Origin: Gammaproteobacteria bacterium | Lineage (GTDB): Bacteria; Pseudomonadota; Gammaproteobacteria; Eutrophobiales; Eutrophobiaceae | Assembly: GCA_030835405.1 (NCBI GenBank) | Contig: JAURPG010000010.1 | Coordinates: 1 to 35,959, forward strand | DNA: 35,959 nucleotides | Direction: 5' to 3' | Shown here: positions 2,852 through 30,893 of the stretch, piece by piece | Numbering within the stretch: position 1 is the first letter of the stretch | How the letters are laid out: each line of letters opens with the position of its first letter | The notes under the pieces: model-generated | Told to the model about the DNA's origin: nothing | The model's database searches: none | The model's input: the letters and a program-made list of their open reading frames with translations, nothing else | Program-made: the position numbers and the translations under genes

Positions 2852-4597
2852 CTATAGCTTATGTAAAGGTTGCAATTGTCCTTCCGGTTCGGGCCTTGAG
2901 TGTTTTTGCTTTAGAACTGCTACCGCGTCACTAAAAACAGATTTAAATTTAGCGCCGTCCCACTCTATCATCTGGCTTGAATATAAAACTCTGTTGAGGT
3001 GATTAATTTGATCACGCATATCTCCACCTGTGCGTGCGGCAATCTCACCCAGACCAACAGGGGCGGAATGAGCCCACTGTGCCCCTGCCCATTCCAGTAA
3101 GGCATTCTTTGCCTTAAGTGGGTCATTGTTCTCACAAGCCGCAATAACATTATTCTCAGCAGGACCAACAGCTATTTTTGCTGCCGATTTATATTGAGTA
3201 TTTTGACTGTGTTTAGCACCGGTAGATTTTTTCCACCAGACAACCAGGGTGATAACCCAGACAATCGCAATTAGAAGCGTTGACCATTTCCACATATCAG
3301 ACTGGCTTTCATCCGTTACCGGAGGTGATTCTCTTGGCGTGATCTCAACTTCATCTTCAGCAGGGCCATTCAATATGGGTTGTATGGGTGCCACCAGGCT
3401 GGTGATATCCGGTTGTCCGGTGTCAACGCCTGTTGCCGACAGAACCCGAATGGTACGTTCGGGGACGACTGCAATTTCCTGTTGATCGGTTTGGATATTC
3501 CACCATGGGATAGCAATCTCAGGTAATACATAACTTCCAGGTTGGTTTGGAATGATTGCTGCCTGTTCGCGACGGGTGCTATAAACCCCGGCATCTGACA
3601 TTTCATCTTCCAATTGAGGTCGATCTGGATAAAATTTCAGGTCCCCCACTGACCAATCCGGTAATTCCGGCAATTGACTGGAGATAAGCCCACGTGCACT
3701 CATGATCAATGTACGGGTAATGGGTTCTCCAACCCGCAAGGTCATTGGGTCATCGGACCATTCTTCAGCAATAGTCAGATTTTCCGCTGGCAGCCATTGG
3801 TTCCCGGAAAAAGAAGCTGGAATTGGTTGAACATTAAGATTAATTTCCTGGGAACGCCTCACCACGGTACGGGGCGGTGCGCCGAATGGATCCACGCCAA
3901 ACCGGCTGCGGGTGATCTGTCCCATAAAATTAATAGGGGCAATACTCACCTCACCACTGGACTGCGGATAAACTGCATAGTTTCTTTCAATCACGTGGTA
4001 ATTCCTGCCATTGATAGTGGTTTCATAACTCTTATCATCATCAATACGTTCCAGCACCGCATTTCCCGTTGTAATATCAGGTTCTGCCAGACTGGCCTTG
4101 GCAATGGCAACAGAACGATATAATTTTAAGGTATAGATGACCTGCGACTGGACGTAGGGATTAAGCGGCGTTGCCGAAGCCTCTAGAAAAATATCATCCT
4201 GCACCTGGCTGTTTGACGAACCCGTGTTGTTTGGTCTGATGTAAATCGTTTTCACTGGACTTTTGTCCTGACCGAATGCGATTGACGGGATGGTAACGTT
4301 ACCGTCGGTATTCGCCATTGCCGTTATGGTCCAGCGCTTGGAACTGGATATCCGTCCATTAATAACACTGAAGTTACTGCTTTGAACTGTTGATAACACC
4401 TGGAAGTCATTTTCCAGTGGTGAGAAGTCCGGCTCACCATCCAGGTCACCCTCCGCTTCAAAGATAATCTGAAAGGATTCATTTAAAGACACGGGATTTC
4501 GATCGGTCCTGACATTAATGGTTGCTGCCTGTGACGATGAAAAAGTTGCAACCAGGACAAAAAACACATTAATTAATAAGAGTATTCGCATTACCAT
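2852..4597 (-). CDS. batD: BatD-like membrane protein (oxygen tolerance family)
   Basis: The 581-residue protein has a signal peptide (residues 1-25, ending near SQA-A), a long periplasmic region of beta-rich repeats, one transmembrane helix at about 435-454 (WSTLLIAIVWVITLVVWW), and a cytoplasmic tail of about 125 residues. This is the BatD layout. The family is named from Bacteroides aerotolerance operons; its molecular role is unknown, and it is thought to work with the VWA proteins BatA and BatB. It is the last gene of the moxR-bat operon. The ATG at 4597 lies inside the end of the preceding gene; a second ATG at 4591 overlaps the preceding TAA, giving a start two residues shorter. Either choice implies coupled translation. 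Confidence 0.88.
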   Translation of the reverse strand: MVMRILLLINVFFVLVATFSSSQAATINVRTDRNPVSLNESFQIIFEAEGDLDGEPDFSPLENDFQVLSTVQSSNFSVINGRISSSKRWTITAMANTDGNVTIPSIAFGQDKSPVKTIYIRPNNTGSSNSQVQDDIFLEASATPLNPYVQSQVIYTLKLYRSVAIAKASLAEPDITTGNAVLERIDDDKSYETTINGRNYHVIERNYAVYPQSSGEVSIAPINFMGQITRSRFGVDPFGAPPRTVVRRSQEINLNVQPIPASFSGNQWLPAENLTIAEEWSDDPMTLRVGEPITRTLIMSARGLISSQLPELPDWSVGDLKFYPDRPQLEDEMSDAGVYSTRREQAAIIPNQPGSYVLPEIAIPWWNIQTDQQEIAVVPERTIRVLSATGVDTGQPDITSLVAPIQPILNGPAEDEVEITPRESPPVTDESQSDMWKWSTLLIAIVWVITLVVWWKKSTGAKHSQNTQYKSAAKIAVGPAENNVIAACENNDPLKAKNALLEWAGAQWAHSAPVGLGEIAARTGGDMRDQINHLNRVLYSSQMIEWDGAKFKSVFSDAVAVLKQKHSRPEPEGQLQPLHKL

Positions 4598-6360
4598 TGT
4601 TTCTCACCCGGTATTCTTTCCCGTTGTCGTTGCTGATACTGTAATAGAAATTTTCGCCTGAGTAATCCACCGGGATCATCAGGAATACGCCTTAACCATT
4701 GTTCGGTAGCCTGTTCTTCCTCGTCTGGTTGGTCCAGGTTTGCCTGCATGGGGTCCATCTTTCCAGGATCCTGTTGTTCTTCACCCTGCTGCTGTTCAGA
4801 ATTCTCTGCCTGTTGTTCAGTTTCCTGCATTTGCTGTTCCTGATCCTGCCCCTGATCTTGCTGGTCCTGTTGCTGCTGTGCCTGGTCCTGATTTTGCTGG
4901 TCCTGCCCCTGGTCCTGTTGCTGCTGTTCCTGATCTTGCTGCTGTTGGTTCTGATCACTGAATGATTGTTGTGGTTGCTGCTGTTGTTGCTGCTGATTTT
5001 CCAGTTCCTGCTCCAGTAATTCCTTGTTATGCCTGGCATCCTCGTGGTCGGGGTTTGCTTTTAGCACTTCATTATAGAGGGAGATCGCCTGTTCAAACAT
5101 TCCTTTACGTGCCAGGGCGTTACCAAGATTATACTGGTTTTCAATTCCCTCAATGTCTTCCAGTTGGGTGATGGCCTCATCAAAGTTTCCGGCACGGTAA
5201 TTGGCAGCACCTTTCCAGGCAGGGTCTTCGAATAATTTGGCGGCGGACTCAACGTTGCCTTGTTCCATTAATTTCTCTGCGCGTTGATCGGCCCTTAACC
5301 ATAGAGATTCCCATTCAAAGGCCATCGCATCTTGAGGGTAAGGTAAACAGAAAACAAGTAACGCAATCAGTGCCCCCCGTCTGAATGCAGTCAGGACAAA
5401 TGGAACCAGCAGCAATAATAACCAGGGACCTTGTTCGCGCCAGACATCAGTTTCAAAATCTGTCTCTGACAGATCATCATCTGAAAAGTTTGACGAGAAA
5501 TATTCTGATAAACCGATTATATCTTCATCATCTACTGTCATCTTCATATATAAGCCACCACCCGTTGAGGCCAATTGACGCATGGGTTCTTCGTTTAATG
5601 TTGGAACAATAATTAGTCCTGACCGGTCCTTGAAAAAGCTGCCATCCGCCATGGTAATTGGTGCGCCCTGCAAAGTCCCAATACCAAGTATGGACAATCG
5701 ATATCCATCATTTTGAATGGCCTCAGCGAGGACGCGGTTCCTGTCAAAATCCACCTCATCCGTAATCAGCAGGATATCTCCCTGGATGACGCCGGCCTGT
5801 TTTAATAATTCAACTGCCTTGGACATGGCCAGGTCTGTCCTGTTCCCCTGAGCCGGAATGATGTCTGTGGTCAGAGCCATCAGTTGAGACTCAATAGTCG
5901 CCGCATCGTCAGTCAATGGTGTCACGGTAAATGAGTCACCCGCATAAACCAGCAGGGCCGTTTCCCCTTCTGCACGCTGTTGCAGAATATCAGCAACCTT
6001 GAACCTGGCCCGTTCAAGTCGGCTGGGATTCACATCGCTAGCATTCATGGAACGGGACAGATCCATGGCGACGACCAGCGCCGACTGGGTGCTAAATGTC
6101 GGTTGAGGCAGTTTTTCCCAGGTTGGCCCAGCCAGTGAGAGCAGAATAAGTGTCCCCGCCAGCAGGGTAATATAAGCCGAGGTGCGTCTACTCGCAGGCT
6201 CATCACCAATGAGGATATAGGGTAATAACTCCTTGTCACATAAAGATTCCCACTTCTTGTTTCTGAGCCGGTACCGGAACATATACACGACCAGGATGAT
6301 CAATGAAATAAACCCATATAGCCAGTACGGGCGTATAAACTGAAACTCTTCCGGCAACAT
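4591..6360 (-). CDS. BatB-BatC fusion: membrane VWA domain plus TPR and glutamine-rich tail
   Basis: The 589-residue protein joins what are often two genes. Residues 1-335 are BatB-like: hydrophobic helices near 13-29 and 62-78, a von Willebrand A domain with the metal-site motif DLSRS at 100-104, and a closing membrane segment near 312-337. Residues 365-450 are BatC-like, with tetratricopeptide repeats (QYNLGNALARKGMFEQAISL at 409-428). Residues 456-530 are mostly Q with D, E and G, encoded at 4771-4995. A conserved-looking end (EQWLRRIPDDPGGLLRRKF) follows. VWA domains bind protein partners through a metal ion; TPRs also bind proteins. It begins at TAATG shared with batA and overlaps batD at its end. 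Confidence 0.88.
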   Translation of the reverse strand: MLPEEFQFIRPYWLYGFISLIILVVYMFRYRLRNKKWESLCDKELLPYILIGDEPASRRTSAYITLLAGTLILLSLAGPTWEKLPQPTFSTQSALVVAMDLSRSMNASDVNPSRLERARFKVADILQQRAEGETALLVYAGDSFTVTPLTDDAATIESQLMALTTDIIPAQGNRTDLAMSKAVELLKQAGVIQGDILLITDEVDFDRNRVLAEAIQNDGYRLSILGIGTLQGAPITMADGSFFKDRSGLIIVPTLNEEPMRQLASTGGGLYMKMTVDDEDIIGLSEYFSSNFSDDDLSETDFETDVWREQGPWLLLLLVPFVLTAFRRGALIALLVFCLPYPQDAMAFEWESLWLRADQRAEKLMEQGNVESAAKLFEDPAWKGAANYRAGNFDEAITQLEDIEGIENQYNLGNALARKGMFEQAISLYNEVLKANPDHEDARHNKELLEQELENQQQQQQQPQQSFSDQNQQQQDQEQQQQDQGQDQQNQDQAQQQQDQQDQGQDQEQQMQETEQQAENSEQQQGEEQQDPGKMDPMQANLDQPDEEEQATEQWLRRIPDDPGGLLRRKFLLQYQQRQRERIPGEKQW

Positions 6361-10033: not shown

Positions 10034-10390
10034 ATGCCTCCATTAAATCCTGCAACGTTGAATACTATCCTCAATACCGCGCCGATGATAATACAGGGGG
10101 CAGGTAAGTTAATCCGGCTGATTAGAGACAGAGAGAATGAAAACGATACAAATTCCCGGGAGCCCACAACGCTGGATAATCTAAAGGAACAGGTGTCTTC
10201 ATTGGATAAGCGTCTGGCAGAAAATTCAAAATCCGATGTGGAGCAGATTCAGCTAATCGAGGAGCTTGCCAGGCAAAATGAATCATTGGCTGAAACTTTA
10301 AAGCAGACCTTAAAACGGGTCACCGTTTTGAATTACCTGGTTGTCTTCTCGATTATCATCGCCCTGGTAGCGCTGCTACTCAGACAGTGA
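10034..10390 (+). CDS. Hypothetical coiled-coil protein with C-terminal membrane anchor
   Basis: I do not recognise a named family. The 118-residue protein has an uncharged N-terminal third (MPPLNPATLNTILNTAPMII), a charged central part (about 30-95) with regular hydrophobic spacing typical of a coiled coil (LKEQVSSLDKRLAE, then LIEELARQNESLAETLKQTLK), and a single hydrophobic helix at about 98-116 ending in LLLRQ. This predicts a tail-anchored inner-membrane protein with a cytoplasmic coiled coil. Its stop overlaps the GTG start of the DUF2007 gene (GTGA), so the two are probably translated together. It starts about 300 bp from the divergent moxR gene; a link with that operon is only inference. 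Confidence 0.75.
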   Translation: MPPLNPATLNTILNTAPMIIQGAGKLIRLIRDRENENDTNSREPTTLDNLKEQVSSLDKRLAENSKSDVEQIQLIEELARQNESLAETLKQTLKRVTVLNYLVVFSIIIALVALLLRQ

Positions 10391-10704
10391 AAAAGATATA
10401 TACCTCTCCCGAGCAATACCAGCTTGGTCAAATTATTTCCATGCTTGAGGAGGATGGTATTGCACATGTCATTCGTAATGAATTTTTGTCTGGCGCACTG
10501 GGGGAACTACCACCCCATGAATGCTGGCCACAAATCTGGATCGTCCATGAAGAAGATTATGAAAAGGCCAGGGCCATCGTTGATCAGGCGTCAGCTGCCA
10601 TTACCGATTTAGGTCAGTGGCGATGCGATTGTGGCGAAGAGAATGAAGGGACGTTTGGATCGTGCTGGAAGTGCGGGCGAGAAAGAAAAACCGGACAGGA
10701 TTGA
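10387..10704 (+). CDS. DUF2007 domain protein with C-terminal zinc ribbon
   Basis: The 105-residue protein starts at a GTG overlapping the upstream TGA. Residues 1-68 match the DUF2007 (putative signal-transducing) fold: MKKIYTSPEQYQLGQIISMLEEDGI, then an ELPPHECWPQIWIVHEEDYEKARAIV segment. Residues 77-98 form a RanBP2-like zinc ribbon, W-x-C-x-C-x10-C-x2-C, probably binding one zinc. The function of DUF2007 is not established. The last codons and the TGA stop (GGACAGGATTGA) belong to the intergenic ACAGGAT repeat that starts at 10694, so the C terminus GQD is supplied by the repeat. Confidence 0.85.
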   Translation: MKKIYTSPEQYQLGQIISMLEEDGIAHVIRNEFLSGALGELPPHECWPQIWIVHEEDYEKARAIVDQASAAITDLGQWRCDCGEENEGTFGSCWKCGRERKTGQD

Positions 10705-10936
10705 CAGGATTTTTTGGGATAGACAGGATAAGTATATAGCTAGTTAGCGTTTCACAAAAAAAAGCTATTAAGTTAATGAATAACTAATTGCTGGTACTAA
10801 CACAATAAAGATTTGACGGGATTTACAAGATTAACAAGATTTTTAAAGATAGACTGAAATTGAACATTAAAATCTCGTCATTCCTGTCTTTATTTTTTTA
10901 ATCCTGTTAATCCTGAAAAATCCTGTCAATCCTGTC
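10694..10936. repeat. Inverted-repeat element of the ACAGGAT family, copy 1
   Basis: Positions 10694-10714 and 10916-10936 are perfect 21-base inverted arms, each with two GACAGGAT-type units followed by a T run (read outward to inward). Inside each arm are further degenerate units: GATAGACAGGAT at 10718-10729 and the reverse-oriented AATCCTGTTAATCCTG at 10900-10915. A direct-orientation block, TTTACAAGATTAACAAGAT, sits near 10822-10840. The left arm overlaps the end of the DUF2007 gene and the right arm ends 29 bp before the convergent peroxiredoxin stop. The AT-rich interior has no open frame. Function unknown; a transcript could fold into a long stem and serve as a two-way terminator. Confidence 0.85.
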
Positions 10937-10965
10937 TATTCCTTTATATCAACTACTCCCGTGTA

Positions 10966-11448
10966 TCAGAGGTTTTCGAGAATATAGTCTGCGGAACTGA
11001 CCTTAAACTCTCCGGCCTCTTCAACGTGTAACTGGCTGACCACGCCATCATCAACCACAATTGCAAAACGTTGACCTCGGGTACCCATGCCAAAACCACT
11101 GGCATCCAACTCAAGTCCCAGGGCACTGGCATATTCACCATTACCATCTGCCAGCATCAGGACGTTATCTCCTGCACCATTTTGCTCGCCCCAGGCTCCC
11201 ATGACAAAAACGTCATTGACTGCCATACAGGCAATGATATCAACACCCTTGGCCTTGATTTCTCCGGCCTTTTCGACAAAACCAGGTAAGTGCTCTTTTG
11301 AGCAAGTGGGAGTAAAGGCTCCCGGCACGGAAAAAAGTACCACTTTTTTTCCGGAAAATATTTCGCTGGTGCTGACAGCACCAGGGCCGTCTGCTTTCAT
11401 TACTTTAAAAACACCATCAGGCATTTTATCTCCAACACTAATAGTCAC
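10966..11448 (-). CDS. Peroxiredoxin of the Prx5 group (AhpC/TSA superfamily)
   Basis: The 160-residue protein is a thioredoxin-fold peroxidase that reduces hydrogen peroxide and alkyl hydroperoxides. The peroxidatic cysteine is C49 in PGAFTPTCSKEHLPGF, the exact Prx5-type motif. C74 in DIIACMAVND is the only other cysteine, at the place where many bacterial Prx5 proteins also have one. GFGMGTRGQRFAIVVDDG near 117-134 and the VEEAGEFKVSSADYIL end complete the family pattern. The start is a GTG at 11448, preceded by TGGAGGA at good spacing; the nearby ATG runs into TGA at once. Its electron donor (thioredoxin, glutaredoxin or glutathione) cannot be told from the sequence. Confidence 0.93.
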   Translation of the reverse strand: MTISVGDKMPDGVFKVMKADGPGAVSTSEIFSGKKVVLFSVPGAFTPTCSKEHLPGFVEKAGEIKAKGVDIIACMAVNDVFVMGAWGEQNGAGDNVLMLADGNGEYASALGLELDASGFGMGTRGQRFAIVVDDGVVSQLHVEEAGEFKVSSADYILENL

Positions 11449-18647: not shown

Positions 18648-18707
18648 GTTGAAAGTAAAAAGCAAACAGCATTTTCCAGGTGTTATCTTTTACTTTTTAC
18701 TTTTAAC
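18648..18707. repeat. AT-rich inverted repeat between the hydrolase and argG
   Basis: GTTGAAAGTAAAAAG at 18648-18662 pairs with CTTTTTACTTTTAAC at 18693-18707 (14 of 15 positions, one G-T-type mismatch), leaving a 30-base loop. It begins 2 bp after the hydrolase stop and ends 38 bp before argG. It may end transcription of the aceE operon, although the stem is AT-rich and weak. GTAAAAAG also occurs at the end of the cupin gene near 21934. Confidence 0.55.
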
Positions 18708-18745
18708 TGATTACAATTGCCCCCTTTTCACCCCTGGGAAACACA

Positions 18746-19963
18746 ATGAGTACAAACACATTTAAAAAAATCGTTCTGGCCTATTCTGGTGGACTGGATA
18801 CATCCGTCATTCTGAAATGGCTTGAGGAACAATACCAGTGTGAAGTGGTGACCTTTACTGCTGACATTGGGCAGGGTGAAGAGCTGGAACCGGCAAGGAC
18901 CAAGGCCCAGGCCATGGGGGTCAAGGAAATCTATATTGAAGATTTACGTGAAGAGTTTGTTAGAGACTATGTCTTTCCCATGTTCAGGAGTAATGCCATC
19001 TATGAAGGTGAATACCTGCTGGGCACATCCATTGCGAGGCCTTTAATTGCAAAACGTCTGGTTGAGATCGCTAATGAAACTGGTGCAGATGCCATATCAC
19101 ACGGCGCCACCGGCAAGGGAAATGACCAGGTCAGGTTTGAACTGGGTGCCTATGCCCTCAATCCTGACATAAAAATAGTTGCCCCCTGGCGGGAATGGGA
19201 CCTGAACTCCAGGGAGAAATTGCTGGATTATGCCGAGGCAAACGGTATCTCTGTGGAAGGTAAACGCAAGGGTGGATCACCTTATTCCATGGATGCGAAC
19301 CTGCTACACATCTCCTACGAAGGTGGCGAACTGGAAGATCCATGGTGTGGGCCGGATGATGCCATGTGGCGATGGACGGTCTCTCCTCAAGCAGCTCCGG
19401 ATGATCCTGAAACCATTGAGATTGAATTTAAAAATGGCGACCCCGTTGCCGTCAACGGTGAACGCCTGACACCTGCCGCGCTACTGCTCAAACTGAATGA
19501 ATTGGGTGGCAGGCATGGAATCGGTCGTGCCGACATCGTGGAGAACCGGTATGTGGGAATGAAATCCAGGGGGTGTTATGAGACACCTGGCGGCACCATC
19601 CTGTTAAAGGCCCATCGGGCCATAGAGTCAATCACCCTGGATCGCGAATCTGCCCATCTGAAAGATGAACTTATGCCCAAGTATGCCAGCCAGATATATA
19701 ACGGCTATTGGTGGAGCCCGGAAAGACTGGCGCTTCAGACCTTGATTGATCAGACCCAGGCACCCGTGAATGGCAGTATCAGATTAAATCTGTATAAAGG
19801 TAATGTTATTGTCTCCGGCAGAAAATCTGAATCCAACAGCTTGTTCGATGCCTCTATTGCCACTTTTGAAGATGATGCCGGTGCGTATGATCAGAAAGAT
19901 GCAGAGGGATTTATCAAGTTGAATGCATTACGTTTGAGAATTTTAAAAAAACGTGAGGGGTGA
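18746..19963 (+). CDS. argG: Argininosuccinate synthase
   Basis: ArgG joins citrulline and aspartate using ATP to form argininosuccinate, the penultimate step of arginine synthesis. At 405 residues it is the short bacterial type, not the 447-residue E. coli type. The ATP-binding P-loop is AYSGGLDTS at residues 12-20. Further conserved blocks are [16 protein letters not shown] (about 113-128), APWREWDL, and [27 protein letters not shown] precedes the ATG, a modest ribosome binding site. The final codons (R-E-G-stop, CGTGAGGGGTGA) are part of the inverted repeat at 19953-20019. Confidence 0.97.
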
Positions 19964-20019
19964 GGAGTTACGTGTTAAGGAATTGATTATAAAATGACGC
20001 CTCACTCCTCACCGCTCAC
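19953..20019. terminator. Candidate two-way terminator hairpin overlapping the end of argG
   Basis: GTGAGGGGTGAGGAGT at 19953-19968 pairs with ACTCCTCACCGCTCAC at 20004-20019 (15 of 16 bases), with a 35-base loop. It lies between convergent argG and the glutamate-synthase-domain gene. The left arm includes the argG stop codon and the right arm ends 2 bp before the other gene's stop. A short T-rich run follows on the plus strand. The position favours transcription termination in both directions; this was not modelled for stability. Confidence 0.6.
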
Positions 20020-20021
20020 CT

Positions 20022-21524
20022 TTAATTCTTTACCACTTCCGGAAACAACTCATCCAATGGAATTGAGTTACCTTTATCCGTAACAATCCGGGCATGTGAC
20101 CTCCGTAACTGTCTCGGTTCCAGCATCCCACAGGAATGGGAAATGATGCCCACTTCCTTTTCCAGGTTTCTTGCATAATGCATTACCCGGACAGACTTGC
20201 TCTCGATATCCAGACCACGTTGCAGGTCCGGGTCATGAGTGGTAATGCCCGTTGGACAGGTGTTCTTGTTACATTGCAATGCTTGGATACAGCCCAGGGA
20301 AAACATGAATCCCCTGGCTGAGGTGACAAAATCTGCACCAATACACAACGCCCAGGCAACGTTAGTGGGTGTAATAAGCTTACCTGAGGCAATCACTTTA
20401 ATTCTTTCCCGAAGTCCATATTCAACAAGTTTATCTACAATTAACGGTAGACTCTCCTGTATGGGCAAACCGACATCGTCCATCAATGGCATAGGGGCTG
20501 CACCGGTACCACCATCAGCACTATCCACGGTAATAAAATCAGGAGCCGATTCCACGCCTCTTTCAAGAATCTCTTTGAATAGTTCATCGATCCAGTTATG
20601 TGATCCAATTACCGATTTAAATCCTACCGGCTTACCTGTCAGATCCCTTATCCGATTTATCATATCCAGCAAGTCAGCATTTGAATCTATGTCCCGATGG
20701 CGATTCGGACTAATGGAATCCTGGCCCACAGGTATGCCTCGTATCGCGGCAATTTCTTCTGTGACCTTGGCACCGGGAAGGATCCCACCCTTACCTGGTT
20801 TTGCCCCCTGGCTTAATTTAATTTCAAACATTTTAACTTCTGGATGTGTTGAAACCTGCTGTAATTTTTCATCACTAAGTTCACCCTTCTCATCCCTCAC
20901 CCCGTATTTGGCGGTACCTATCTGAAATACCAGGTCCGCGCCACCTTCCAGGTGATATGGGGACAAGCCGCCTTCTCCAGTGTTCAACCAACATCCAACC
21001 ATTCGAGCACCTTTGGATAAGGCTATGACAGCAGGTTTGGAGATAGCACCGAAACTCATACCGGAAATATTTATAATGGCATCCGTCTCATAGGGATGTT
21101 CGCAATGGGGACCCACGATAACGGGCACCGGTTCAACGACATCTTCATCCAGGGTAGGATAAGGTGTATTAACAAATAGTATGGTCCCCCTGGGCCTTAA
21201 ATCCCGGGTGGAACCAAAGGCCACGGTATTGTCCAGGTTCTTGGCAGCACGATAACACCATGCCCGTTGAGAACGATTAAATGGAAGTTCCTCCCTATCC
21301 ATGGCAAAAAAATACTGACGAAAAAATTCACCCAGGCGCTCAAACAGGTATCTAAATCTGCCAATGACCGGATAATTTCGCCGAATAGCGTGAGTTTTCT
21401 GTGAGATATCAAGAAAGAACATCACCGCGACGGTAACGGCAATAATTCCAAGGGTAGCAATAAATATCACCGCCATCCATTCAAGTGCATAAAATAAAAA
21501 ATTTTGTAAACGGTCAGTATCCAC
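20022..21524 (-). CDS. Membrane-anchored FMN-binding glutamate synthase domain protein
   Basis: The 500-residue protein contains the FMN/iron-sulfur synthase domain of glutamate synthase large subunit, without the N-terminal glutaminase and C-terminal beta-helix domains. Landmarks are INISGMSFGAISKPAV (151-166), NTGEGGLSPYH (181-191), KPGKGGILPG (242-251), DSADGGTGAAP (334-344), and the [3Fe-4S] cysteines C412, C418 and C423 in the C-x5-C-x4-C pattern. Residues 13-38 are a transmembrane helix, so the enzyme is membrane-tethered. Relatives are annotated only as FMN-binding glutamate synthase family proteins; the real substrate is not known. A second protein with this domain begins at 35214. 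Confidence 0.92.
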   Translation of the reverse strand: MDTDRLQNFLFYALEWMAVIFIATLGIIAVTVAVMFFLDISQKTHAIRRNYPVIGRFRYLFERLGEFFRQYFFAMDREELPFNRSQRAWCYRAAKNLDNTVAFGSTRDLRPRGTILFVNTPYPTLDEDVVEPVPVIVGPHCEHPYETDAIINISGMSFGAISKPAVIALSKGARMVGCWLNTGEGGLSPYHLEGGADLVFQIGTAKYGVRDEKGELSDEKLQQVSTHPEVKMFEIKLSQGAKPGKGGILPGAKVTEEIAAIRGIPVGQDSISPNRHRDIDSNADLLDMINRIRDLTGKPVGFKSVIGSHNWIDELFKEILERGVESAPDFITVDSADGGTGAAPMPLMDDVGLPIQESLPLIVDKLVEYGLRERIKVIASGKLITPTNVAWALCIGADFVTSARGFMFSLGCIQALQCNKNTCPTGITTHDPDLQRGLDIESKSVRVMHYARNLEKEVGIISHSCGMLEPRQLRRSHARIVTDKGNSIPLDELFPEVVKN

Positions 21525-21945: not shown

Positions 21946-21978
21946 ATATCGTCGCGGCTAAGGCGCATATTATTTTTA

Positions 21979-22006
21979 CTGGATACTGGCTTTCGCCAGT
22001 ATGACG
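21979..22006 (-). repeat. REP-like hairpin, copy 1 (minus orientation)
   Basis: Read on the minus strand: GTC, an 8-base stem ATACTGGC, loop GAAA, stem complement GCCAGTAT, then CCAG. It lies 33 bp after the cupin stop. The same flanks and loop with a different but still paired stem occur at 34547. The rest of the spacer to 22107 is rich in TTAC-containing words (for example ACTTGTTACTTGTAG), of unknown meaning. Confidence 0.8.
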
Positions 22007-22107
22007 AATGGGCTGGTTTTGACTTCTAACTTCTTACATTTTACGTCTTACATCCTTTTTATTTTTTACATATTACTTGAGACTTGTTACTTGTAGCCTG
22101 TAACTAA

Positions 22108-23650: not shown

Positions 23651-23717
23651 ATTTGACAGGATTTACAAGATTAACAAGATTTGTTTTTTGCGTTTTGATG
23701 GTCATGAAAATCCTGTC
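23651..23717. repeat. ACAGGAT-family repeat between prfB and lysS, copy 2
   Basis: The block at 23651-23682 (starting ATTTGACAGGATTTACAAG) is identical to 10811-10842 at 31 of 32 positions. An inverted AAAATCCTGTC follows at 23707-23717, pairing with GACAGGAT at 23655-23662, so this is a short version of the element. It lies inside the prfB-lysS spacer. Confidence 0.75.
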
Positions 23718-26664: not shown

Positions 26665-27700
26665 ACTCTGGCATTCTTTTATAATGGATAATCGGGTGTG
26701 GTTTCTTCCAGAATTTGTTTAAGCCAAAACGGCTTAAGTAAAACTCATGCTCATCGGTGATTATACGTAGTTTTTTCAATTTCCCCTGCTGTAAATGTTC
26801 CAGGGCCGGGGCAAACCAGCTACCTTCCAATAGCATCAAGGCCTTTTGCCACAGGTCCAGGTTCTGGTACTGCCTGGGCGCCTGACAATGCATCAGGACC
26901 GCCAGGACTTCGTCCTTCTCGTTACTATGCTCCAACATCCCCAGAAAATGGTTAGGTACAGAATAGGTTGTGATAGATGTCAACCCTGCAAGGCAGCTGG
27001 CAAAGACATCATCGGCAAAGACCATAGAGATATCAGTATCTGAAAGCGTATCGATTTCTCCCATACCCCAAAACCAGATACTGTTAATGGGTAACTCTCC
27101 ACGTGATTCGCGCTGCTGATTAATATCGGAGCTGAATAAGTGCATCTGGAGTTCATTTAACATACTGTGTATTTTTCCAGCCCCTTCCCCCCTGGGAAGA
27201 TAGGCTGCCACTTCACTACCCACAACCGTGCTCAATTCGGTGGTAGTGATTGGCAGATCATTATCCAACTGGATATACCAGCGGTCTTCATAGGGGACTT
27301 CTATGGTAAAACCATAGTCCTGAAGTACCTGGTTGGCCTCGGCAGCAATGGCCAGGGCATCATGCTGGCTGAGATTTAAAATAAATGAATCCATCAAGAT
27401 CAGACCATCTCGATCAGCACTGAGGTGCACGGGGTCTGCCCGCATCCAGGTACCACTGGAATCTCCAGCGTTGTCCTGATAGCGCGTTATAGATGCTACC
27501 GGCACATCCTTTTCTGCCGGAACATCCAGGGCCAGGAGGTTAGCCAGGGTCCGATGGTACTCAGTATTGGTATTCAGGTTAACTTTATGACTGGATTTAG
27601 ATAACAGCAGTTCCAGCGCAGGCAGTGAGGGGACATAATCATCATGGAACCGGGCATCGGGACCTAATAAACCAGGTATGATCAGTGTCAGGGATTGCAT
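26648..27700 (-). CDS. RpfE-like conserved protein (COG4255, phosphoglycerate-mutase-related)
   Basis: The 350-residue cytoplasmic protein looks like the COG4255 / RpfE-type family next to recJ in xanthomonads and other gammaproteobacteria. Features supporting this are the N-terminal LTLIIPGLLGPDARF, a central WYIQLDNDLPITTTEL region with GEGAGKIHSMLNELQMHL, then NSIWFWGMGEI and a C-terminal FWKKPHPII. The family is distantly linked to cofactor-independent phosphoglycerate mutases (alkaline phosphatase fold), but I do not see the complete metal-binding set, so enzymatic activity is doubtful. RpfE is named from the rpf virulence cluster of Xanthomonas; a regulatory role here is not shown. Confidence 0.75.
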   Translation of the reverse strand: MQSLTLIIPGLLGPDARFHDDYVPSLPALELLLSKSSHKVNLNTNTEYHRTLANLLALDVPAEKDVPVASITRYQDNAGDSSGTWMRADPVHLSADRDGLILMDSFILNLSQHDALAIAAEANQVLQDYGFTIEVPYEDRWYIQLDNDLPITTTELSTVVGSEVAAYLPRGEGAGKIHSMLNELQMHLFSSDINQQRESRGELPINSIWFWGMGEIDTLSDTDISMVFADDVFASCLAGLTSITTYSVPNHFLGMLEHSNEKDEVLAVLMHCQAPRQYQNLDLWQKALMLLEGSWFAPALEHLQQGKLKKLRIITDEHEFYLSRFGLNKFWKKPHPIIHYKRMPEYAKEN

Positions 27701-28040
27701 GACTCAAATTTACATGAGAACAGCATAATCGGCCAGTAATATGATTGAATTATTAAAGAAAAAGAAATAGACAGGATTAACAGGATAATATTTAATTTGA
27801 CTTGATGATTTTTAAATATTTATTAATGATTAGAGCATGTTGTTAAGTAAAAAATAATTGGCAGAATTTACAAGATTTTATTAGTGACATATATCAATCA
27901 TGTAAATTTTAAAATTTCTATCCTGATGAATTATTGCTTAATAAAATCAGATACGTTTCGTACAGCTACAATCTGTTTTAAAACACCAAGACATATTAAT
28001 TTTTTCATCCTGTTAATCCTGTCTATTTTTTATTTTTTTC
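27701..28040. other. Gene-free AT-rich spacer between thrC and the rpfE-like gene
   Basis: This 340-bp stretch contains the long inverted-repeat element at 27765-28028 and little else. Neither strand holds a convincing open frame with a ribosome binding site. No tRNA cloverleaf was seen. The promoter for the rpfE-like/recJ/prfB/lysS genes should be in its left end (27701-27764), where I cannot name good hexamers. Confidence 0.6.
27765..28028. repeat. Inverted-repeat element of the ACAGGAT family, copy 3
   Basis: Positions 27765-27786 and 28007-28028 are perfect 22-base inverted arms. The left arm contains AATAGACAGGATTAACAGG. The 220-bp interior is AT-rich, with one degenerate GGCAGAATTTACAAGAT at 27861-27877. 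The structure matches copy 1 in arm sequence and spacing (element lengths 264 and 243 bp), but the interiors do not look alike. It ends 13 bp before the thrC stop. Confidence 0.88.
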
Positions 28041-29171
28041 TCAATCGAGATTATCCATAATCGCCGCCTTGACCTGGTCAAACTCGGGCTCAATCTTGAT
28101 CACCGGTACGGTGCTTTGTTTGATAGCAGTATCCGGGTCTTTCAGGCCATGGCCGGTCAGAGTACATACCACTACACTGCCTTCAGGTATCTTGCCTGAT
28201 CGGATGTCTTTCAGCGCGCCGGCAACAGAGATTGCCGAGGCAGGTTCACAGAAGATCCCTTCCTTTTCTGCCAGTAATTTTTGTGCCGCCAGGATTTCAT
28301 CATCGGTAAATTCATCAAACCAGCCGCCGGATTCCTCGCTGGCGGTCACAGCGTAATCCCACGACTGTGGGTTACCAATACGGATGGCAGTGGCAACGGT
28401 CTCGGGATTATCCACCGGATGGCCACGAAGAAATGGTGCGGCGCCACTGGCCTGGTAGCCACACATCACAGGGGTATTATCTACCACCTTGTCAAGAATG
28501 TAGTCACCCTGCTGGGATTGAAAACTATCCTGATACATGGGTCTACCTGCATACTCACAATAGCCCAGCCAATGTGCGGTAATATTGCCGGCATTTCCCA
28601 CCGGCAGGCAGTGATAATCCGGGGCCCGACCCAGGGCATCGATGATCTCAAAGGCGATGGTCTTTTGCCCATGAATACGATAAGGGTTAATGGAATTAAC
28701 AATACTGACTGCAGTATTTCCCCCCACTTCCTTGACCAGGCGCATACCGTCATCAAAGTTACCCAGGATCTGAATAACAATGGAACCCTTAATCATGGCC
28801 TGGGCAAGTTTTCCCAAAGCAATCTTGCCTTCCGGTATAAGGACAAAACATTTTATCCCTGCGCGACTGGCATAGGCCGCAGCGGCAGCCGAGGTATTTC
28901 CAGTGGAGGCACAGATCAAGGCCTTTGCCCCTTCAGTGACCGATTGGCTCACAGCAACGGTCATGCCACGGTCTTTGAATGACCCGGTGGGATTCAGGCC
29001 TTCAAACTTGGCATGGATCTCAATGTCCTTGCCTACCAGTTTTGGAATGTTGATTAGCGGGATCAAGGGTGTACTCCCTTCATACAGGGAAATCACCGAG
29101 GCATTATCGGCAAGGGGAAGCCGCGACCGGTAACGATCTATGAGTCCTTTATTGGTTCTAAATTCAGTCAT
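28041..29171 (-). CDS. thrC: Threonine synthase
   Basis: ThrC converts O-phospho-L-homoserine to threonine with pyridoxal phosphate. The 376-residue protein belongs to the shorter PLP fold-type II threonine synthases. The lysine that binds PLP is K66 in NPTGSFKDRGM, followed by the CASTGNTSAAAAAYASRAG phosphate loop region and the PVGNAGN motif near 190. It follows hom on the same strand, separated by 198 bp with another ACAGGAT-family repeat whose left arm runs into the thrC leader. The ribosome binding site is weak (AAAGAAATAC before ATG). Confidence 0.96.
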   Translation of the reverse strand: MTEFRTNKGLIDRYRSRLPLADNASVISLYEGSTPLIPLINIPKLVGKDIEIHAKFEGLNPTGSFKDRGMTVAVSQSVTEGAKALICASTGNTSAAAAAYASRAGIKCFVLIPEGKIALGKLAQAMIKGSIVIQILGNFDDGMRLVKEVGGNTAVSIVNSINPYRIHGQKTIAFEIIDALGRAPDYHCLPVGNAGNITAHWLGYCEYAGRPMYQDSFQSQQGDYILDKVVDNTPVMCGYQASGAAPFLRGHPVDNPETVATAIRIGNPQSWDYAVTASEESGGWFDEFTDDEILAAQKLLAEKEGIFCEPASAISVAGALKDIRSGKIPEGSVVVCTLTGHGLKDPDTAIKQSTVPVIKIEPEFDQVKAAIMDNLD

Positions 29172-29180
29172 GTATTTCTT

Positions 29181-29365
29181 TAATAGACAGGATTAACAAG
29201 ATCTATTCAGGGTTAACAGGATATTAAGAAAACTTTAATATGGCCATTTATATCAGTCAAATAAAATACGATTTATTTCCATTGAGCTTGTGCGTTTGGT
29301 AAACAAAAAATTCAATTATTTATTTTATCCTGTTCATCTTTTAACACCCTGTAAATCCTGTCCAA
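29181..29365. repeat. Inverted-repeat element of the ACAGGAT family, copy 4 (degenerate)
   Basis: The left side 29181-29225 holds TAATAGACAGGATTAACAAG and GGGTTAACAGGATAT. The right side 29324-29365 holds inverted units (TTATCCTGTTCATC and CCCTGTAAATCCTGTCC). Arms pair imperfectly. Total length is about 185 bp, filling most of the thrC-hom spacer. The left arm lies just before the thrC start, so it would form part of the thrC 5' leader. Confidence 0.75.
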
Positions 29366-29369
29366 TCTT

Positions 29370-30680
29370 TTATGCCAAAGTTTCCACCCGAATCCGTATC
29401 ACCTTGTCCTTCACGGAATCCAGTGCCTCGATTTTTTCTATGGCCTGGTTCATATGCTTTTCCAGGGTCATCTGGGTAAGAAAGATTACCGGGACGTTGG
29501 GAACATCACCTTCTGGTTCTTTCTGTATGATCGCCTCAATACTGATTTCCAGATCACCTAATATAGAAGTAATATCAGACAATACACCGGGTTTGTCCAC
29601 TGCCAGGACCCTAAGGTAATAACCTGTCTCCACCTCTTCCATGGGCCGGATGGCAATATCGGAAATGGCACTGGGTTGAAACGCCAGGTGCGGCACCCGG
29701 TTTCCAGGGTCGGTGGTCAGCGCCCGTACCACGTCCACCACATCAGCAATCACAGCAGACGCCGTGGGTTCGGAACCCGCACCTGCACCATAATATAATG
29801 TGGGACCTACCGCATCACCCTTCACCAGCACTGCATTCATGACGCCATCAACATTGGCGATCAATCGCCTGTGGGGTATCAAGGTAGGATGTACTCTTAA
29901 CTCCACACCTTGATCCGTCTTACGGGTAATACCCAGGTGCTTGATCTTATAACCCAGTTCAGCCGCATAGGCCACGTCCTGACGTTCAATATTGGTGATT
30001 CCCTCTTTGTATACCTTGTCGAACTGCAATGGGATTCCAAATGCAATTGACGATAGTATCGTCAACTTATGTGCCGCATCGATACCTTCTATATCGAACT
30101 CCGGGTTGGCCTCGGCATAACCCAGGGCCTGTGCCTCGGCAAGGACATCATGAAAGTCCCGGCTCTTTAACAGCATCTCAGACAGGATGTAATTACTGGT
30201 ACCGTTAATAATCCCCGCTGCCCATTCAATCTGATTTGCCGCCAGGCCTTCTCTCACTGACTTGATTATGGGAATACCGCCGGCGACCGCCGCCTCAAAT
30301 GCTACCGTCACGCCCTTGTTCTGGGCAGCCTCAAAAATCTCATTACCATGTAATGCAATCAAGGCCTTGTTGGCCGTTACCACGTGTTTGCCATTTTCAA
30401 TGGCCTTCATCACCAGCTCCAGGGCCGGGGAATAACCACCTATGAGTTCAATGATGATCTCTACTTCTGGGTCTTCCACCACCTTGAAGGCATCGTCAGT
30501 TATTTGAGCAATGCTCTCCAGACCCGGCAAGTCTTGACTGTATTCTTTAGCGGCGGCATGACTGATGGTGATCGCACGTCCTGCCCGTCTTGCGATCTCA
30601 TCGGCATTACGCGACAGCACACTGACAGTACCACCACCGACGGTGCCAAGTCCTAACAATCCTATTTTTACTGGTTTCAT
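29370..30680 (-). CDS. hom: Homoserine dehydrogenase
   Basis: Hom reduces aspartate semialdehyde to homoserine with NAD(P)H, at the branch to threonine and methionine. From the ATG at 30680 the protein has 436 residues and begins MKPVKIGLLGLGTVGGG, the usual Hom N terminus; a TTG at 30689 would add three residues and is less likely. Residues 10-17 (GLGTVGGG) bind the nucleotide. EAAVAGGIPIIK and IEGIDAAHKLTILSSIAFG are in the catalytic domain. A C-terminal ACT domain (about 355-436, YYLRVLAVDKPGVLSDITSIL) suggests feedback control by threonine, as in related enzymes. No aspartokinase is fused. Confidence 0.96.
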   Translation of the reverse strand: MKPVKIGLLGLGTVGGGTVSVLSRNADEIARRAGRAITISHAAAKEYSQDLPGLESIAQITDDAFKVVEDPEVEIIIELIGGYSPALELVMKAIENGKHVVTANKALIALHGNEIFEAAQNKGVTVAFEAAVAGGIPIIKSVREGLAANQIEWAAGIINGTSNYILSEMLLKSRDFHDVLAEAQALGYAEANPEFDIEGIDAAHKLTILSSIAFGIPLQFDKVYKEGITNIERQDVAYAAELGYKIKHLGITRKTDQGVELRVHPTLIPHRRLIANVDGVMNAVLVKGDAVGPTLYYGAGAGSEPTASAVIADVVDVVRALTTDPGNRVPHLAFQPSAISDIAIRPMEEVETGYYLRVLAVDKPGVLSDITSILGDLEISIEAIIQKEPEGDVPNVPVIFLTQMTLEKHMNQAIEKIEALDSVKDKVIRIRVETLA

Positions 30681-30723
30681 AATTTTCAATTTTATTTAGT
30701 TCTTGAAAAAAGCTATTTCCATC

Positions 30724-30763
30724 ATTCCCGCGCAAGCGGGCATCCCCTTCCCATAGGGAAGGT
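30724..30763 (+). repeat. REP-like hairpin, copy 2, with a second small hairpin
   Basis: CATTCCCGC, loop GCAA, then GCGGG-CAT (30724-30743) resembles the REP-like family at 34547, though the outer pairs are decayed. A second hairpin, CCTTCCC-ATA-GGGAAGG, follows at 30746-30762, then a T-rich stretch near 30774-30780. It lies 43 bp before the hom start (hom is on the minus strand), between alaC and hom. The remaining 204-bp spacer (30690-30893) has no gene. Confidence 0.65.
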
Positions 30764-30893
30764 AGGATGGGGTCATTTTTATCCGCCGTAGGCGTTCATT
30801 TTCTTGATTATATCCTTACAACTGTTCAAGTAATTAATTTAAATAAAAACAATATTCTTGCTTCAACCGGAATAACAAATGTTGAATATCTCA

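Follow-up and report, generated by a model that had tools for sequence, protein, structure and literature searches.

The window analysed here, a stretch of 35,959 nucleotides on contig JAURPG010000010.1 of a gammaproteobacterial assembly (GCA_030835405.1), carries a 243-bp element at positions 10694-10936 that sits between two convergent genes. Its first 21 bases (10694-10714) are the reverse complement of its last 21 (10916-10936) at 21/21 positions, and the arms reach 36 nt at 89% identity. They consist of stacked 9-nt units of the word ACAGGATTN, and a second, inner pair of arrays gives the element an outer-inner-loop-inner-outer layout. The features of the locus are:

10387-10704, + strand: 105-aa upstream ORF; the element provides its final codons and its stop TGA, and the G002 homologue of this ORF has a different end
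10694-10729, + strand: left outer word array of four ACAGGAT-word units, one of them degenerate; the first 21 bases are the perfect arm, and the array holds the stop of the upstream ORF
10730-10900, no strand assigned: AT-rich interior without an ORF, its sequence mostly unrelated to the interiors of other copies
10815-10841 (approximate), + strand: left inner word array (GACGGGATTTACAAGATTAACAAGATT), a 97% copy of window positions 23651-23682
10872-10888 (approximate), - strand: right inner word array, degenerate
10901-10936, - strand: right outer word array, inverted
10966-11448, - strand: downstream, convergent peroxiredoxin-like gene, whose stop lies about 30 bp from the element

The perfect 21-bp arms and the gene-free interior reported by the first-pass annotation were both confirmed, as no ORF was found inside the element and among perfect inverted pairs less than 300 bp apart, the longest in the window measures 22 bp, compared to at most 14 bp in 60 dinucleotide shuffles. 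Its description as intergenic holds for the position between two convergent genes but not for the boundary itself, where the stop codon of the upstream ORF lies inside the left arm. Rfam gave no match over the whole window, which includes no match to rRNA.

Copies in the genome and in congeners

A search of the whole 2.8-Mb genome that contains the window (G000) with the arm sequence, as had been suggested, returned many further copies: the doubled word GACAGGATTNACAGGAT has 108 matches with at most two mismatches, whereas the same pattern read backwards has one. In the stretches of G000 that were read, we identified 54 word clusters, of which 17 were either shorter than 35 nt or inside ORFs; all of the arrays or elements of at least 35 nt (37/37) lie between ORFs, at a median distance of 18 bp from a gene 3' end. 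The first bases of an array supply the stop codons of seven flanking genes, and arrays often occur as inward-pointing pairs. The window itself contains three more elements of the same word and one of the same layout built from another:

19950-20023, no strand assigned: same-layout element made of the 7-nt word NGTGAGG
23651-23717, no strand assigned: second ACAGGATTN element, with one full and one degenerate array
27755-28038, no strand assigned: third ACAGGATTN element, at gap C
29182-29370, no strand assigned: fourth ACAGGATTN element

Individual copies vary in composition. The ACAGGATTN element at G000:C29:2065-2249 (L231) encloses words of another 9-nt class (CACAGAGGACACAGAT), while G000:C75:3867-4072 (L198) has two letter-identical, directly oriented copies of the left array, 116 bp apart, which amounts to an in-place duplication. 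Elements seem to be clustered in some chromosome regions (G000 C75, C89, C95, C100, C105 and C51; G002:C1:1570000-1613000).

Gene order round the window is kept in all five genomes of the genus, namely G000 and its four congeners G001-G004. The word is abundant only in G000 (66 matches with at most one mismatch) and G002 (32), compared to 0 in G001, 0 in G003 and 1 in G004. The first-pass annotation had held that arms not conserved among strains would speak against its reading; between species the arms do differ in this way, as presence or absence, yet a mobile element would be expected to show just this. None of the congeners was seen to carry the ACAGGATTN element at the corresponding position. 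G002 repeats its layout there in another word, the left side comprising about a dozen GAGGTGT units and the right side CACTTCACTCCTCACGCCTTACTCCTCAC. Gap C (27700-28041) likewise holds ACAGGATTN arrays in G000, the GTAAAGAGTAACG type in G002 and the GTGAAGAGTGAGG type in G003, and no arrays in G001 and G004. One word is thus replaced by another at the same site.

A GxxExxY gene (PF13366) was found in none of the five genomes (0/5), and no PF05635 gene was found in G000. The sole PF05635 gene of the genus belongs to G003; NGTGAGG arrays and CCTCACN arrays enclose it, and it has a gene 3' end on either side. The NGTGAGG word occurs also at the G002 orthologue of the window site and at window positions 19950-20023. 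The encoded protein matches 2gsc, which we take, following PMC4990558, to be the Xanthomonas S23 pentamer, and weakly matches the Avd family.

The word in other phyla and the GxxExxY proteins

The exact 26-mer GACAGGATTNACAGGATTNACAGGAT was found in at least 115 contig stretches. Titles among the matches listed name Verrucomicrobia, Kiritimatiellae, Chloroflexi, Bacteroidetes, Pirellulales, Spirochaetes, Nitrospinota, Proteobacteria and others, and archaea (ANME-2/Methanoperedens) are among the matches listed as well. In the window's own phylum the 26-mer is rare, with two of 398 genomes matching at no more than two mismatches. Many of these loci have two arrays paired as a short hairpin whose loop is below 50 bp, and ACAGGATTN-type ends occur with unrelated interiors in many phyla. 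One contig stretch (L114, 5269-5389) ends in about a dozen identical ACAGGATTC units, and assemblies may break at such word arrays. A single fixed gene as the neighbour of the arrays was considered and not borne out, one of ten ORFs scanned near arrays being PF13366.

At one locus (L089), an ORF for a GxxExxY protein (139 bits to PF13366, 145 bits to TIGR04256) both starts and stops inside convergent ACAGGATTN arrays. PF13366 was present in 47/50 genomes carrying GACAGGATTNACAGGATTNACAGGAT (picked among the first 80 loci of the matches listed, with a single locus for each genome so far as the names allow), in 31/200 genomes of the phylum sample and in 3/14 named controls; the contrast between the first two is only indicative, since the phyla differ and most of the 31 phylum matches come from one family. 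PF13366 is absent from three of the 50 word-bearing genomes, and G065 has two GACAGGATTNACAGGATTNACAGGAT matches yet lacks PF13366. Among 30 PF13366 loci read in word-bearing genomes, ACAGGATTN arrays bracket the ORF in four, are one-sided or near in three and are missing from 23. Most of these 23 have convergent arrays of other words (e.g. CACGAAGNA and CGCAGAGNA), and a second sample gave the same picture, with words mostly of 9 nt.

In an alignment of 17 GxxExxY proteins, D66 and E76-x-K78 are kept, the pattern expected of PD-(D/E)XK nucleases. Sequence searches for a solved structural relative of GxxExxY found none. The second family of interest, S23/IVP (PF05635/TIGR02436), is a four-helix bundle, and 23S rRNA intervening sequences (IVS) belong to S23/IVP elements.

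For both families we scored the local inverted match between the two flanks of the ORF, with flanks cut from the family match and a threshold of at least 20. PF13366 loci reached this score in 20/29 cases in word-bearing genomes (one of 30 omitted because its flank was too short) and in 21/30 in the phylum sample, or 41/59 overall, compared to 10/225 control ORFs. For PF05635 the corresponding counts were 16/30 in the phylum sample and 17/22 in an independent multi-phylum set, in which 8 of 30 loci cut by contig ends were omitted. With flank partners swapped between loci, the threshold was reached in 19/552 (PF13366, word-bearing), 57/579 (PF13366, phylum) and 16/579 (PF05635, phylum) pairings. 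A tandem score was not used as evidence because many control loci had been picked for holding arrays.

The period of the words is tied to the protein family. Periodic flanks of PF05635 have a period of 7 nt in 36/37 and 29/33 cases in the two sets, and those of PF13366 (n=43) have a period of 9 in 27, 8 in 7, 10 in 7, 6 in 2 and 7 in none; control flanks were periodic in 7/77. The word itself follows the protein tree: in a tree of 60 GxxExxY proteins, in which several forks are weakly supported, the word class needs 15 changes over 45 labelled rows (the 15 proteins with no word label were left out), compared to a shuffled mean of 26.2 and with a value as low in 0/200 shuffles. A single branch of 15 rows contains all six ACAGGATT rows, and its other words end in GAT or AAT; one of the six, L258, was labelled by hand, since its ORF extends into the arrays.

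Readings of the element

We read the window element, with a probability of roughly two in three, as the ORF-less, non-autonomous shell of a GxxExxY-type mobile element, belonging to a class that is ended by convergent degenerate-word arrays with a fixed outer boundary. The element shares its ACAGGATTN arrays and their convergent layout with some GxxExxY genes (4/30 loci), it has convergent arrays of the branch's own word and a fixed outer boundary, and it has no PF13366 ORF between the arrays, so that it can be at most an ORF-less derivative. The weakest points of this reading are the lack of a GxxExxY gene, the unrelated interiors and the missing target-site duplication. Unlike the GxxExxY loci, the window's genus has no such gene, and thus no mover is at hand in G000 or its four congeners; moreover, unrelated interiors are not what results when a single master copy transposes in the ordinary way. 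We also count against it the 23/30 PF13366 loci of word-bearing genomes that have other words or none, and the 16/43 periodic PF13366 flanks that depart from period 9.

The first-pass annotation had likened the element to a miniature inverted-repeat transposable element (MITE), and an ordinary MITE, that is, an insertion sequence shortened by deletion and mobilised by an arm-binding transposase, is the foremost alternative, though an unlikely one. The likeness stands insofar as the element is short, non-coding, intergenic, dispersed, inverted-ended and present in many copies, as in MITEs, REPINs and other small mobile repeats, and insofar as copies are present or absent between congeners and share a fixed outer boundary (consensus A-A/t-T-A/G-G directly before ACAGGATT). 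It is a poor fit for the interiors and for the sister species that carry other words at the same sites. The interiors of the G000 copies are AT-rich and mostly unrelated: among 25 compared, matches were mainly the inner arrays (26-42 bp), and three interiors have 56-91 bp in common, so copies are not similar over their whole length. In MITEs and REPINs, both termini and interiors are generally family-specific sequences; in the window element, by contrast, the family mark is the tandem word and interiors differ. A REP/REPIN with its RAYT transposase would be recognised by a RAYT gene together with a palindromic REP and the tetranucleotide of that REP. Target-site duplication, which the first-pass annotation had found no sign of, is absent over 30 elements of G000 as well (a repeat of at least 5 bases in 6/30, with 4.2 expected by permutation). 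The same ends, furthermore, occur with unrelated interiors in many phyla and round GxxExxY ORFs. A separate candidate, that the flanks are an inverted continuation of each other, was rejected (172/360 agreements, 172.2 when permuted).

De novo word addition seems to us quite improbable. After a chromosome break, an enzyme that adds ends from a template or switches templates would extend the two 3' ends with purine-rich words, much like the telomere repeats in a telomere fusion, and the interior would be filler. Such addition would account for the inward-pointing pairs, the mostly unrelated interiors, the different words of sister species at one site and the independence of the arms from each other. 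When mirrored units were compared across 117 convergent pairs at 94 loci, their variable letters matched in 58/164 cases (permuted mean 58.4), and in G000 alone in 5/29, below the 10.1 expected by chance. We accordingly rejected the view that the arms are copies of each other; their likeness reflects the one fixed word that makes up both. The earlier argument that perfect arms imply recent creation or selection for pairing does not survive this count. A host repair enzyme would not be expected to produce words that track the GxxExxY protein tree and periods that track the protein family, and this speaks against word addition.

We give still less weight to a selected RNA structure that evolved in place at gene 3' ends, either as a bidirectional terminator or as an mRNA-protecting stem. 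The fold predicted for positions 10685-10950 is very stable (-85 kcal/mol, z = -9.2 versus shuffles), arrays supply stop codons as described above, and gaps between convergent genes are enriched. With genes called as longest ORFs in the same G000 stretches, the 37 arrays or elements lie in 17 convergent, 18 tandem and 2 divergent gaps, compared to 33, 85 and 40 among all 158 gaps. Tandem gaps are thus used too (18/37), however, and neither a terminator nor a promoter was matched in positions 10600-11050; gap C has no arrays in G001 and G004, and the complementarity of the variable letters is not kept. Simple repeat slippage or chance can be dismissed: although the units are short and tandem and one contig (L114) ends in a long run of identical units, such arms never appeared in shuffles, and the convergent layout, the same word in many phyla and the genome-wide excess (108 versus 1) contradict it.

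Proposed mechanism, related systems and other repeats

In the mechanism that would accompany the shell reading, the class has at least two protein-coding branches, GxxExxY with words of 8-10, mostly 9, nt and S23/IVP with words of 7 nt. GxxExxY (PF13366/TIGR04256) would be a PD-(D/E)XK-type nuclease, and ACAGGATTN would be a word from one of the GxxExxY branches. Recognition of the arrays, and with it insertion, may be due to the encoded protein or to an oligomer of it. In this genus, a protein that has since been lost, or has escaped detection, would have mobilised the gene-less copies in trans; transcripts of the array stem might be tolerated or cut in the manner of the RNase III stem of an IVS.

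Two described systems have features in common with this layout. According to PMC4990558, the 23S rRNA IVS of Coxiella burnetii has three tandem heptamers before its S23 ORF and 28-bp terminal inverted repeats, and is excised by RNase III. The window element resembles such IVS with an S23/IVP ORF in being a small, apparently selfish element of sporadic distribution whose inverted terminal repeats form a stem, and resembles the Coxiella IVS in its tandem short-word repeats, which in the IVS are 7 nt long and next to the ORF (PMC4990558). Unlike IVS, which lie in 23S rRNA genes, it lies between protein genes and has 9-nt words and no ORF; with its 9-nt units, no rRNA match in the window and no PF05635 in G000, it does not belong with the S23/IVS elements. 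In the tRNA-Leu(UAA) intron of Nostoc, PMC4476775 describes heptanucleotide repeats in the P6b stem (class I TDNGATT, class II NNTGAGT), with one heptamer class swapped for another at one site. Degenerate short tandem words in a stem and replacement of a word class at the same site are thus shared with the window element; the Nostoc repeats differ in lying inside a group I intron and in having 7-nt words, and the passages of PMC4476775 that describe them name no linked protein.

We suggest tentatively, at somewhat less than even odds, that an unrecognised class of minimal mobile elements spans the domains of life, with GxxExxY and S23/IVP as two of its branches and each element made of one small protein and two convergent word arrays. 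The protein family would fix the period (about 9 versus 7 nt) and the subfamily the word, which a protein ring or nuclease would read as spaced subunit binding sites. Such a class would encompass, as its various states, the rRNA IVS, the gene-less hairpins of the window and the elements that sister species build from different words at one site. Searches of open-licence PMC texts yielded no description of such elements, which is no proof of absence beyond those texts. The genomes sampled contain scattered arrays of short words at gene ends, which are usually taken for junk. If the period rule holds, such arrays would become assignable to two orphan families, GxxExxY, with no solved relative, and S23, with one (2gsc); both families would gain a testable role, and the long-puzzling rRNA intervening sequences would join a wider class of mobile elements.

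The window contains other repeats as well. At 18655-18717, another convergent short-word pair (GTAAAAAGCAAA / TTTTACTTTTTACTTTTAAC) lies between two genes, and G002 has a similar right part. Two further dispersed repeats lie at 21960-22010 (CTGGATACTGGCTTTCGCCAGTATGACG type, with copies in all five congeners) and at 30716-30779 (TCATTCCCGCGNAAGCGGG type, with further copies in G000 and G002). Within the gene at 4591-6360, a long repeat of glutamine codons occupies positions 4771-5025, in the 3' part.
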